Origin: Limosilactobacillus sp.
Lineage (GTDB): Bacteria > Bacillota > Bacilli > Lactobacillales > Lactobacillaceae
Assembly (NCBI RefSeq): GCF_022651205.1
Contig: NZ_JALCQI010000001.1
Span: forward strand, 62,001 to 126,000
Direction: 5' to 3'
DNA length: 64,000 nucleotides
Below the pieces are notes generated by a model. It was given only the letters and a program-made list of their open reading frames with translations, was not told where the DNA came from and did not search any database. Both the position numbers and the translations under genes were made by a program. Positions 20,723 to 57,165 of the stretch are shown here, in pieces (position 1 is the first letter of the stretch; each line of letters begins with the position of its first letter).

Positions 20723-20843
20723 TAAAAAATGAGACTATTGGCGGTTGCCATAGTCTCTACATTCATTAGTACGATTGCTTATAGTCCAAAGTTTAAGGCT
20801 TTGGGTAGAGACTCACCGACCATATTACGGTATTATATAGGCA
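20723..20843 (-). ncRNA. Purine (guanine/xanthine) riboswitch
   Basis: On the minus strand the aptamer reads CTATATAATACCGTAATATGG, then TCTCTACCC and GGACTATAAG. These are the conserved junction sequences of purine riboswitches, and C in GGACTA indicates a guanine rather than adenine aptamer. The terminator GAGACTATGGCAACCGCCAATAGTCTCATTTTTT follows before the permease start. Bound guanine or hypoxanthine should favour termination. Confidence 0.9.
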
Positions 20844-20939
20844 TAGTGTTGTTATCCTACCACGACTTGAAAAAGCTGGCAAGGCAATTAAGCAAAAGTG
20901 TTATTATAGTAGTAAACGTAGCTGAAAGGACGGGACAAA

Positions 20940-42153: not shown

Positions 42154-43533
42154 TTAATCAACCTCAGTCTGATTAACATGAACTTGGTTGCGACGGAAGA
42201 AGTGGAATGCGAGACCAACAGCTAATCCAACGAGGGCTGGAACAACCCAGGAAAGGCCCATTGAAGCAAGTGGCAACATCTTCCGGACACCAGCTACCCA
42301 GAGGCCAAATGAACTTTGACTAACAACCGCTGGGAAAGCAACGACCATGTCACCAAGTGCGGGAACCACTGTTAAGAGAACAACGAAGAAGTAGACAACG
42401 CTGTCACGATGGAAAAGTGGTGAAGCAACGGAAAGAACGATCAATACCATTGATAATGGGTAAAGGAACATTAACATTGGGGTAGACCAAGCAATGATTT
42501 GATCGAGACCAAAGTTGGCAGTTAAGAATGAAGCAAGGCAGCTAAGGGCTAACCAAGCGTGGTAGCTAACCTTTGGAAAGTGTTTATGGAAGTCTTGGGC
42601 AAAGGCAGCAACTAAACCAACAGCGGTTGTTAAACAAGTAACCGTCAAAAGAAAGGCAAGAACAACTTGACCAAAGGCACCGGCATAAGCGTTAACTAAT
42701 TGGTTGAAGGCAACACCACCATCAGGAGAAACCTTAAAGCGTCCAAGTGACATTGCACCAAGAACGATCAAGAGAAGGTAGATAAAGCCGATGGCACCAA
42801 CAGCAAGAAGGCCAGAACGGGTAACAACCTTAGAAACAGCGCCTGGACGACGAACGCCCATCCCTTTAACAGCAGTAACAACAGTAACACCAAAAGCTAA
42901 TCCGGCAAGAGCATCCATTGTGTTGTAACCTTCAAGGAAACCATTAGTAACAGCACCGTGAACGTAAGCGCCTGTTACGGGAGCGCTGGCAGGGTTACCA
43001 AGTGGATTAGCGAATGCGACAACGAAGACAAGAAATAAGAGTGCAAGGAAAACTGGGTTCAAAACTTTACCAACATTTGAAAGAATGCTGTTTTCCTTGT
43101 AGGAGAAAGCAAAGGCGAGGACGAAGAATACCGCGGAGAATAGGAGAAGTGCCCAACCTTGAGCTGCTTTTGGAACGAACGGAGCGACACCAACAGTGAA
43201 TGATACGGTTGCTGTCCGGGGAGTTCCGAATAATGGACCGATGGTAGCGTGAATCAGGACCATAAATACTAGGGCAAACACTGCGCCAAGCGGCCGACCA
43301 ACGTCATAAACCCCTTCTGCACGAGTTACGGCAATTGCTAATACTGATAGCAACGGGAGTAAAACTGCGGTAACGAGGAAGCCTAATGCGGCTGGTCCCC
43401 AATGAGCACCGGCTAATTGTCCAAGGTGAAGGGGGAAAATTAAGTTCCCAGCACCGAAGAACAATCCGAATAGTAGTGAAGCAACAACTAAGTATTGCTT
43501 AAATGTCAACTTTTTTGTTGTTAAATCCTGCAT
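42154..43533 (-). CDS. brnQ: Branched-chain amino acid:cation symporter
   Basis: 459 residues, about 12 membrane segments. FGLFFGAGNLIFPLHLGQLAG at the N-terminus is the BrnQ/LIV-II hallmark. It imports Leu, Ile and Val with Na+ or H+. The T-box just upstream has an apparent Ile specifier, which agrees with the product. CTAGGAGGG gives the ribosome binding site. Single-gene transcript. Confidence 0.94.
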   Translation of the reverse strand: MQDLTTKKLTFKQYLVVASLLFGLFFGAGNLIFPLHLGQLAGAHWGPAALGFLVTAVLLPLLSVLAIAVTRAEGVYDVGRPLGAVFALVFMVLIHATIGPLFGTPRTATVSFTVGVAPFVPKAAQGWALLLFSAVFFVLAFAFSYKENSILSNVGKVLNPVFLALLFLVFVVAFANPLGNPASAPVTGAYVHGAVTNGFLEGYNTMDALAGLAFGVTVVTAVKGMGVRRPGAVSKVVTRSGLLAVGAIGFIYLLLIVLGAMSLGRFKVSPDGGVAFNQLVNAYAGAFGQVVLAFLLTVTCLTTAVGLVAAFAQDFHKHFPKVSYHAWLALSCLASFLTANFGLDQIIAWSTPMLMFLYPLSMVLIVLSVASPLFHRDSVVYFFVVLLTVVPALGDMVVAFPAVVSQSSFGLWVAGVRKMLPLASMGLSWVVPALVGLAVGLAFHFFRRNQVHVNQTEVD

Positions 43534-43586: not shown

Positions 43587-43860
43587 CAAAAAAGTCCCTT
43601 AACCAAAATTGCTTTGGCTAAGGGACGCTCGAGCGTGGTACCACCCTATCTTCGTATCATCATTGCTGATAATACCTTACACGTACGGCCCGGGACTGGG
43701 CGATACGCTGGCACGTTAATGGGTGCTACCATTAAATCTTACTATCGTTAAGACTTAAGCTCGAAAGTGATTTTCGATTAACGTTAAACCTATCTCCTTT
43801 CACCTGACGAGACTCGCTTAAGGTTACCGTTAATTTACTCTTCTTTCTCATTGCGATCGA
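43587..43860 (-). ncRNA. T-box leader, apparent Ile (ATC) specifier
   Basis: On the minus strand AGTA in the 5' strand of stem I is followed on the 3' strand by GAAA then ATC (43771-43769) and A. AGGGTGGTACCACG is the T-box bulge, and GTCCCTTAGCCAAAGC..GGTTAAGGGACTTTTTTG the terminator. Uncharged tRNA-Ile should switch brnQ on. Confidence 0.9.
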
Positions 43861-54948: not shown

Positions 54949-56283
54949 TTACATCCTCTTTTCATCCATCCTTTTAACGGCGTAGAAGATGGGGAGGCCG
55001 ACGATGACGATGCCGACGAAGAGAAGGACACCGGCAGGGTCGTTGAAGATTTCACTGACGAGGACGAAGATTCCACCGGCGATTGCAATGATTGGTACGA
55101 GTGGGTAGAGTGGAGTGCTGAAAGGCCGTGGTCCCTTATTTTTCTTTCTGAGAATGAAAATACCAAAGAAAGCTAAAAGGTAGAAGCAGTAAACGGTAAA
55201 GACACAAAGGTCCGAGAGGTGATCAGGATCGAAGAAGAACATCATTATGGTAGCAAGGGCAACGATAAATAATGTTGCAACAACAGGCGACTTACCTTTT
55301 GGTGTAACGAACGAAAGGAAGCGCGAGAATGGCAGGTCACCACGACGCGCCATTGCGTAAACAATCCGGGGGAAGGTAATCATTTTTCCGTTTAGGGTAC
55401 CCATCATCGAAATGATAATTCCGGCCGAGAGGAGTTTGCCACCGATTGCACCGAAAGCCTTAGTGGCAAGGTAAGCAGTGGCGTTTTCACCAAGGCGGTG
55501 GATCAGGTTAGCAGGTAAGAACTTAAGAATTCCAACTGTGATTAAAGTATAGATTACAAGAACGGCGGTGATCCCAAGGATGATTGCCTTTGGTAGTAAT
55601 TTTTGTGGGTTCTTCATTTCACCACCAAGGTTAGCGATCAAGATCCAGCCATCATAACCGAAGAGGGTTGCTAAAACGGCAACACCAAAGCCACCAGTAG
55701 CGTGTTGAACTTCGGTAACGGTTTGACCAAAGGCGTGTTGGTTACCAAAGAACAAACCGAAAATAATAATGGCAGCGATTGGAATCATTTTTCCGGCTGT
55801 TGTAATGATAGCGAAAATTGCCCCAACCTTGTTTTCAAACAGGTTCATGATTCCGATTGCGAGGACGGTAATCACGGCTAACGGAATTCGCCATGCAGCA
55901 CTAAGACCAAAGAAGTTGGCCATCAAGATACTCATGAAGCCGGCAACCGAAGCAATGATTGCAGGGCCGTAAACGATGACTTGCATCCAGCCGGCAAGAA
56001 AACCAAGGATTCGTCCATAAAGATTTTCAATGTAGACGTAAAGCCCCCCAGTGTAAGGCATCTGGGCACCAATTTCGGCAACCGTTAAACCACCAGTTAG
56101 GGTAATGATTCCCCCAAATACCCAGGCAGCAATTGCAAGGGATGATGTGCCGGCACTATCAAGAACGGAACCTTGCTTGAAGAAGATCCCTGAACCAATA
56201 ATTGTCCCCACGACAATCGAGATTGCCGACCAAAATCCTAACGACCGTTTCAATTCTTCTTTTGGTTGATTATTCATCGCCAT
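54949..56283 (-). CDS. steT: Serine/threonine exchanger (SteT-like LAT transporter)
   Basis: 444 residues, 12 membrane segments, L-amino-acid-transporter branch of the APC fold. ISIVVGTIIGSGIFFKQGSVL is the helix 1 motif; GLYVYIENLYGRILGFLAGW and ATLFGYDGWILIANLGGEMKNP match B. subtilis SteT almost position for position. SteT exchanges serine, threonine and some aromatic amino acids. Upstream is a 21-codon leader ORF with eight codons SSSSASSS and a terminator, which fits serine control. The last 35 codons before the final eight use C at the third position 27 times, and the final eight are AAAAGGATGGATGAAAAG-like, purine only apart from T. A hairpin element follows the stop. Confidence 0.9.
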   Translation of the reverse strand: MAMNNQPKEELKRSLGFWSAISIVVGTIIGSGIFFKQGSVLDSAGTSSLAIAAWVFGGIITLTGGLTVAEIGAQMPYTGGLYVYIENLYGRILGFLAGWMQVIVYGPAIIASVAGFMSILMANFFGLSAAWRIPLAVITVLAIGIMNLFENKVGAIFAIITTAGKMIPIAAIIIFGLFFGNQHAFGQTVTEVQHATGGFGVAVLATLFGYDGWILIANLGGEMKNPQKLLPKAIILGITAVLVIYTLITVGILKFLPANLIHRLGENATAYLATKAFGAIGGKLLSAGIIISMMGTLNGKMITFPRIVYAMARRGDLPFSRFLSFVTPKGKSPVVATLFIVALATIMMFFFDPDHLSDLCVFTVYCFYLLAFFGIFILRKKNKGPRPFSTPLYPLVPIIAIAGGIFVLVSEIFNDPAGVLLFVGIVIVGLPIFYAVKRMDEKRM

Positions 56284-56308
56284 TCCTCCAATTCAAAATC
56301 GGCATAAT

Positions 56309-56366
56309 AAAAGCCGGGTCCAACCTTAATCATCTGGAAATCGCCAAATGATTAAGTGAACCCGGC
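56309..56366 (-). terminator. Attenuator terminator upstream of steT
   Basis: Minus strand GCCGGGT..CTTAATCAT..TGG pairs with CCA..ATGATTAAG..ACCCGGC, followed by TTTTATT. It lies between the serine leader peptide and the steT start. Confidence 0.9.
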
Positions 56367-56403
56367 ATTACATTAAACCGTTCTATAGGTACACTAAAAT
56401 CAC

Positions 56404-56469
56404 TCAGCCTCGGATAGAGCTAGAGGCTGAGGAGGAAGATTGTTGTAATTGATTATTGAATACTAACAT
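56404..56469 (-). CDS. Serine-rich leader peptide of steT (attenuation)
   Basis: ATG 56469 lies behind AAAGGAGAAAGATCA and encodes MLVFNNQLQQSSSSASSSIRG then TGA, 21 codons. Seven of the eight codons 11-18 are serine (TCT TCC TCC TCA, TCT AGC TCT). The Ser codons overlap a hairpin CTCAGCCTC/GAGGCTGAG, and a T-run terminator follows. This is the classical layout of ribosome-mediated attenuation: slow translation when serine-tRNA is uncharged should open the downstream gene, here a serine/threonine exchanger. The pairing of the antiterminator is not resolved. Confidence 0.85.
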   Translation of the reverse strand: MLVFNNQLQQSSSSASSSIRG

Positions 56470-56561
56470 TGATCTTTCTCCTTTCGTGTACTTGATGTTT
56501 CTTAGAATACCATTAGAAAATTAATTTGGCAAGTACTAAATAAGAAATACAATTACTAAAA

Positions 56562-56885
56562 TTAGCTTTCTATATTTTCAATAAATTTAGCAAGTCCTTT
56601 TCTGTCTTTTATCGTTAGCTTACCGACATATTTTAATGATACATCTTTTTTTGAAAGATTAAGGACGGTTCCTACGTCAATATAAGATTGTTTCTTTAAT
56701 CCTTCATTTTGCCAATCTTGCAGTGGGTAATAGATCTTTTTGATTCGTTCAGATTTATTACTGTATTTACTTGTTACTTTTAAAAAATAAAATTCATTAT
56801 TTTCTGTTTCTATAATGAGGATTGGCCGCCTTTTACCACCGTTTTGCCAGGTAACGAATGCGGTATATATTTCATTAATCTTCAT
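56562..56885 (-). CDS. PemK/MazF-like toxin
   Basis: 107 residues. The N-terminal KINEIYTAFVTWQNGGKRRPILII resembles the start of PemK/MazF barrels (xRGxVYWxxxxxxxGxxRPxLV). The central part is lysine-rich, and the end KDRKGLAKFIENIE is a C-terminal helix. MazF-type toxins cleave mRNA. It overlaps the antitoxin gene by 11 bases. AT-rich compared with neighbours, so likely acquired. Divergent from known MazF; toxin activity is inferred from fold and context. Confidence 0.75.
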   Translation of the reverse strand: MKINEIYTAFVTWQNGGKRRPILIIETENNEFYFLKVTSKYSNKSERIKKIYYPLQDWQNEGLKKQSYIDVGTVLNLSKKDVSLKYVGKLTIKDRKGLAKFIENIES

Positions 56886-57165
56886 CGTTAAAAAATTCCT
56901 CTAGTTCTTTTTTAGTTCTTAATTTTTTTACAGGCAATTTTTTTAAAGCATTTTGTAGTTCTAGATCAGCCATCTGCTCTGATGTTAAAGAAAAGTCTAG
57001 GGGGATACTTCCAGTAGAAGCAATTTTACGATAAAGGCCATTAATAACTGCAGTTGGAGTTAAACCGACTTCTTTAATAACTTTTTCTGCCATATCTTTA
57101 ATTTCAGGGTCAACATTTGCTTGTACACGTGATTGTGATTTTTTACTTTTTAGCATTGTACTCAT
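56875..57165 (-). CDS. RelB/DinJ-family antitoxin
   Basis: 96 residues. SRVQANVDPEIKDMAEKVIKEVGLTPTAVINGLYRKI is the ribbon-helix-helix of the RelB/DinJ group, and the acidic C-terminus (KKELEEFFNDED) is the usual toxin-binding tail. GAGGTG precedes the ATG and overlaps a palindrome that is probably its operator. It precedes the PemK-like toxin rather than a YafQ/RelE toxin. Confidence 0.85.
   Translation of the reverse strand: MSTMLKSKKSQSRVQANVDPEIKDMAEKVIKEVGLTPTAVINGLYRKIASTGSIPLDFSLTSEQMADLELQNALKKLPVKKLRTKKELEEFFNDED

Follow-up and report, generated by a model that had tools for sequence, protein, structure and literature searches.

In Bacillota, the sensing of amino acids for gene control relies mostly on T-boxes, and translated leaders are few. 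The his, thr, leu, ilv, and trp attenuators of Enterobacteria comprise a leader ORF with a codon run, segments 1 to 4 that form mutually exclusive 1:2, 2:3, and 3:4 helices, and an intrinsic terminator before the gene. The locus described here resembles them in each of these features, whereas its codons are serine codons, its target is a transporter, and its host is a lactobacillus. The ilv-leu operon of Staphylococcus aureus has a leucine-rich attenuator peptide with experimental support (PMC5794164), and a comparable attenuator belongs to Listeria ilv (PMC5864092). Both leaders also represent translated leader attenuation in Bacillota, but they sense branched-chain amino acids and control biosynthesis, unlike the serine leader (PMC5794164, PMC5864092). 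The His leader peptides of Bacillus, Clostridioides, and Erysipelotrichales are predicted attenuators that share with the serine leader the phylum, the comparative-genomic approach, and the combination of a terminator with an antiterminator; they differ in their His codons and in their targets, hisS/hisZ and the his operons (PMC2965389, PMC9413887). The same transporter family is also under an amino-acid-sensing transcription attenuator in the Bacillus cereus group, whose SteT (YkbA) orthologue is preceded by a Thr T-box (PMC2494555). That T-box binds uncharged tRNA directly, whereas the locus described here has a translated leader instead and no T-box.

We found no serine or asparagine leader-peptide attenuator in open-access full texts, a search that could have missed one published in a subscription journal. 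The claim of the preliminary description that a serine leader in front of a transporter is undescribed holds within the literature searched, in which His and Leu/Ile leaders of Bacillota are already known. As far as checked, serine as the amino acid, an exchanger as the target, and lactobacilli as the lineage are new, and the type of mechanism is a known one. At the leader, the T-box family (Rfam RF00230) gave no match at the gathering threshold or at E ≤ 5, and no other Rfam element, including the known leader families, was matched. A T-box is found elsewhere in the window (the whole stretch of 64,000 nucleotides that was analysed), and therefore the T-box search works.

We consider it very probable that the leader is a serine-responsive, ribosome-mediated transcription attenuator of the exchanger gene. 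The features of the locus are as follows.

56504..56532, minus strand: promoter, TTGCCA (56532..56527), a 17-nt spacer, and TATTCT (56509..56504); sigma-70-like, consensus score 9/12
56478..56484, minus strand: leader RBS AAAGGAG, 8 nt before the ATG (sequence)
56404..56469, minus strand: leader peptide ORF of 21 codons, MLVFNNQLQQSSSSASSSIRG and stop (translation; kept at 42 of 48 orthologous loci)
56416..56439, minus strand: Ser codon run TCT TCC TCC TCA GCC TCT AGC TCT (Ser columns conserved)
56423..56431, minus strand: segment 1, CTCAGCCTC, the 5′ arm of the 1:2 hairpin, within the Ser run (pairing and covariation)
56388..56411, minus strand: segment 2, GAGGCTGAGTGATTTTAGTGTACC, the 3′ arm of the 1:2 hairpin and the 5′ side of the antiterminator (pairing and covariation)
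56344..56366, minus strand: segment 3, GCCGGGTTCACTTAATCATTTGG, the terminator 5′ arm and the 3′ side of the antiterminator (pairing, slid controls)
56313..56337, minus strand: segment 4, CCAGATGATTAAGGTTGGACCCGGC, the terminator 3′ arm (fold and covariation)
56304..56312, minus strand: terminator U-run, TTTTATTAT (sequence)
54949..56283, minus strand: steT-like amino-acid exchanger of the APC superfamily, L-type/BasC group, 444 aa (Pfam and PDB matches)

The 21-codon ORF with a strong RBS and a Ser run had been placed correctly in the preliminary description (56469..56404). Its promoter is found again in most orthologous loci as TTGC-N17-TATTCTAA, at approximately −60 to −68 from the leader ATG. 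The interval between the leader and the transporter gene contains no comparable promoter, and the best site in it scores 6/12 in the same sigma-70 consensus scoring. A Rho-independent terminator, also claimed earlier, does stand between the leader ORF and steT (56366..56304), with a 23-bp stem followed by TTTTATTAT. The leader RNA folds strongly at −56.2 kcal/mol (z = −6.3), a value reached by none of the 200 shuffles. The earlier statement that the Ser codons lie in the 5′ strand of a hairpin is correct for codons 14–16 (TCA GCC TCT), which are the only leader codons that the CTCAGCCTC/GAGGCTGAG hairpin includes in its 5′ arm; the earlier Ser codons of the run are located just upstream of this arm. 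The stop codon of the leader, TGA, sits inside segment 2.

Directly upstream of the leader promoter, a gene for a RelB-family antitoxin (Pfam RelB, E 6e-8) and one for a partner of 107 aa that matches no Pfam family occupy 56562-57165 on the minus strand, and the two are probably a toxin-antitoxin pair.

The exchanger matches Pfam AA_permease_2 (E 4.9e-57), and among solved structures it is closest to PDB 6f2g/9h76 (E 2e-84 over residues 19-438), which shows its homology to the SteT/BasC family. PDB 6f2g is BasC, an alanine-serine-cysteine exchanger from Carnobacterium, and YkbA/SteT of B. subtilis is a Ser/Thr exchanger. Among the NCBIfam models, the L-type family stayed below its cut-off and no curated substrate-level family reached the cut-off. 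The downstream gene had been called a close SteT homologue; its membership in the L-type/BasC/SteT group stands, whereas a substrate-level assignment does not follow from the family models. Serine transport by this protein is plausible from its homology.

Segment 2 also pairs with the terminator 5′ arm, GCTGAGTGATT with AATCATTTGGC and then AGTG with CACT, and the resulting 2:3 duplex amounts to approximately −22.6 to −24.8 kcal/mol, both in the window and in the relatives nearest to it. This antiterminator pairing, which was absent from the preliminary description, exists and covaries. In an alignment of 41 leaders, with slid helices and 500 shuffles as controls, pairing is present in 91.8% of the cells of the 1:2 helix (15–50% when slid), 80.4% of those of the 2:3 helix (31–43%), and 70.2% of those of the 3:4 terminator helix (31–53%). 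Compensatory changes occur in 28 cells of the 1:2 helix, a number reached in 0 of 500 shuffles, and 22 pairs of the terminator show double-sided changes in the aligned leaders. For each of the three helices, the cells with double-sided changes exceed those of all 500 shuffles, in statistics that were computed on related sequences. In three leaders (L067, L072, and L077), segment 1 CCUCAACC goes together with GGUUGAG in segment 2 and with AACCACC or AACCACU in segment 3.

Folding with a masked ribosome agrees with this arrangement. When the ribosome was placed at the Ser codons, 21 of 28 segment-3 bases were in the antiterminator (−24 kcal/mol); when it was placed at the stop codon, just 10 segment-3 bases were paired upstream (−9 kcal/mol). 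The fold without a ribosome also has some upstream pairing of segment 3. The rows of a few species, for which the automatic procedure selected segment 3 poorly, are to be ignored. Because the full-length RNA prefers the terminator over the antiterminator in every case, the model needs co-transcriptional kinetics, as in the classical attenuators.

The anatomical elements of a leader-peptide attenuator are thus found upstream of the exchanger gene: a short, putatively translated ORF with an RBS, a run of codons for the regulatory amino acid (Ser) that overlaps or just precedes segment 1, an intrinsic terminator 3:4 between the ORF and the gene, and 1:2 and 2:3 helices that are mutually exclusive by covariation and ribosome-masked folding. 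In the proposed mechanism, when charged tRNA-Ser is plentiful, the ribosome would pass the Ser codons and reach the stop codon in segment 2. With segment 2 then either covered or paired with segment 1, terminator 3:4 would form, and the exchanger gene would not be transcribed. When serine is short, the ribosome would stall on uncharged tRNA-Ser in the Ser run and mask segment 1; segment 2 would be free for segment 3, the antiterminator would prevent the terminator, and the exchanger would be made. If this is true, the serine leader of gut and vaginal lactobacilli extends translated attenuation to a further amino acid, and it predicts when these lactobacilli take up serine.

The preliminary description had proposed to look for conserved Ser runs and paired regions in the leaders of relatives. 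Both are present: the helices covary, and in the leaders aligned on the conserved TCA (n = 42), the five Ser codon columns hold Ser in 39, 39, 40, 42, and 40 sequences. The columns outside the paired core alternate among TCT, TCC, TCA, AGT, and AGC. A switch between TCN and AGY at a shared Ser column is seen in 359 sequence-pair comparisons, which are not independent events. The identity of the leader residues is 0.76 in frame, as compared with 0.46 and 0.53 in the other frames. The core TCC TCA is also constrained by RNA pairing, and therefore the conservation of Ser at these codons is partly unrelated to serine. One could go further and regard the pairing itself as the conserved thing, in a protein- or ligand-bound, riboswitch-like attenuator whose Ser codons are a by-product of CCUCA. 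The core UCC UCA does pair with UGAG of segment 2, and one column inside the Ser run varies among Ala, Thr, Val, and Ser (GCC/ACC/GTC/AGT), following the RNA pairing and not the amino-acid identity. We regard this explanation as very improbable, because Ser is kept outside the core, in an ORF with an RBS and in its frame, through synonymous changes that include TCN/AGY switches, the residue identity falls sharply out of frame, no Rfam family or T-box is matched at the leader, and the Weissella paralogues described below hold the same arrangement with Asn or Thr/Ser runs instead. By these comparisons of sequences, the Ser codons of the leader are selected as codons. The synonymous conservation of the Ser run across two genera also supports the central proposal of the preliminary description, namely that a Ser-codon leader would control the exchanger through the terminator.

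The choice among the Ser codons is uneven. Outside the paired core, TCT and TCC account for 126 of 162 Ser codons (78%) and TCG for none of the 162, and TCG is absent from every Ser column of the leaders (L038-L094). Among the Ser codons of the transporter genes, TCT and TCC make up 18% and TCG 27%. The dominance of TCT/TCC and the absence of TCG may reflect the sensing of one tRNA-Ser isoacceptor (UCU/UCC).

The Ser-run leader ORF is far beyond chance. A GGAG RBS followed by ATG and four TCN codons occurs once in the whole genome of the window, at the exchanger leader. Among 469 short ORFs with ATG and RBS in the orthologous loci and the window, only two others have at least five Ser in eight residues, and both lie on the strand opposite the transporter. 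Across the genus, the RBS-ATG-TCN4 pattern was found at transporter leaders only, apart from chance-looking matches, and no convincing leader was found upstream of the other APC permeases in the genome of the window. One candidate for another Ser-run leader (G003, contig 9) was dropped because it reads into sequence that is seemingly antisense to a coding gene.

The genome scan yielded 65 loci, 48 of which are from Limosilactobacillus or Lactobacillus, including one MAG labelled Bacteroides and records still named Lactobacillus sp. The Bacteroides-titled MAG (L066), which has a Lactobacillus-type steT locus with a Ser leader, is evidently mislabelled or contains a contaminated contig. A short ORF with an RBS and a Ser run is located approximately 150-210 nt before the transporter gene in 42 of the 48 loci, and the same leader is present in further Lactobacillus-group genomes (L116-L119). 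The transporter of the window shares 97% identity with its counterparts in L. portuensis, L. vaginalis, and other species, and the window is therefore from a Limosilactobacillus. The leader peptide varies in length (17-24 aa), its residues are poorly conserved except in the Ser run and the paired segments, and eroded forms occur (SLSS in L074, SPSSVS in L060, and SSSS in L085).

The leader is absent in six Limosilactobacillus orthologues (L064, L065, L069, L070, L071, and L075), where inspection found promoter-like sequence immediately ahead of the transporter gene, with no terminator in between. We searched the Limosilactobacillus and Lactobacillus orthologues for a locus that kept the terminator but had lost the Ser run, which the preliminary description had named as contrary evidence, and found none; the six leaderless orthologues are not such a case, because they also have no terminator downstream of the apparent promoter. 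Leader-bearing transporters cluster on the protein tree, with 1 label change as compared with 30.5 in shuffles. The support of 83 for a single clade makes one origin of the leader likely, but not proven. In the drawn sample of upstream regions, distant orthologues from other Lactobacillaceae genera had no such leader.

Weissella genomes carry two or three transporter paralogues (loci L174-L179, L182-L197, and L205-L219). The paralogue that is approximately 50% identical to the transporter of the window is preceded by a short ORF with 5 to 7 Asn codons in 17 genomes, two of which have Asp/Asn instead of the Asn run. The short ORF of the second paralogue contains Thr and Ser codons, as in MNNRISTAMIMTTSSDSTT..., MTNLKNMQINNSTSSDSTV..., and MDYRHGLNNITSRSTSV. 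Terminators follow the leader ORFs of both paralogues, although some automatic terminator picks for copy 2 (L205-L210) are the wrong hairpin. The segment after the run can pair with the terminator 5′ arm, UUAGUGAUUGG with CCAAUUACUA and GGUUGAG with CUCAACC. The Weissella case is less secure than the serine case, because several of the Asn leaders form a weak 1:2 hairpin and slippage can give rise to an AAT run. We think it reasonably likely that the L-type/SteT-like exchangers of Lactobacillaceae have a family of leader attenuators whose codon run corresponds to the amino acid served (Ser in Limosilactobacillus and Lactobacillus; Asn or Asn/Asp, and Thr/Ser, in Weissella). If this is true, the codon content of the leader predicts the substrate of the transporter and can be read from DNA, and serine and asparagine are new specificities for translated attenuators.

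The Weissella loci also bear on the idea that the leader senses the general state of translation, as the ermC and msrD leaders do, by stalling in response to an antibiotic or slow codons. UCU and UCC are among the less used Ser codons of the transporter genes, so that any slowdown could stall the ribosome there, and antibiotic-responsive leaders exist in Bacillota (PMC10314930). This idea is nevertheless very improbable, since the controlled gene encodes an amino-acid exchanger and not a resistance protein, the run consists of one amino acid, and the codon run in Weissella differs by transporter paralogue. Extremely improbable is a small functional peptide whose gene ends at the terminator, with read-through to the exchanger: the ORF does have a promoter and an RBS of its own and is followed by a strong terminator, but peptide length and residues vary as described above, segment 2 is complementary to the terminator 5′ arm with compensatory changes that a plain terminator does not need, and no other promoter of comparable score precedes the exchanger. 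Serine-responsive attenuation is the reading that we retain.

Two other RNA elements were observed in the window. The T-box leader mentioned above (104 bits, 43618-43860, minus strand) precedes a transporter-like ORF of 459 aa (42154..43533) that resembles a branched-chain amino-acid carrier. A purine riboswitch aptamer (67 bits) is located at 20762-20860 on the minus strand.
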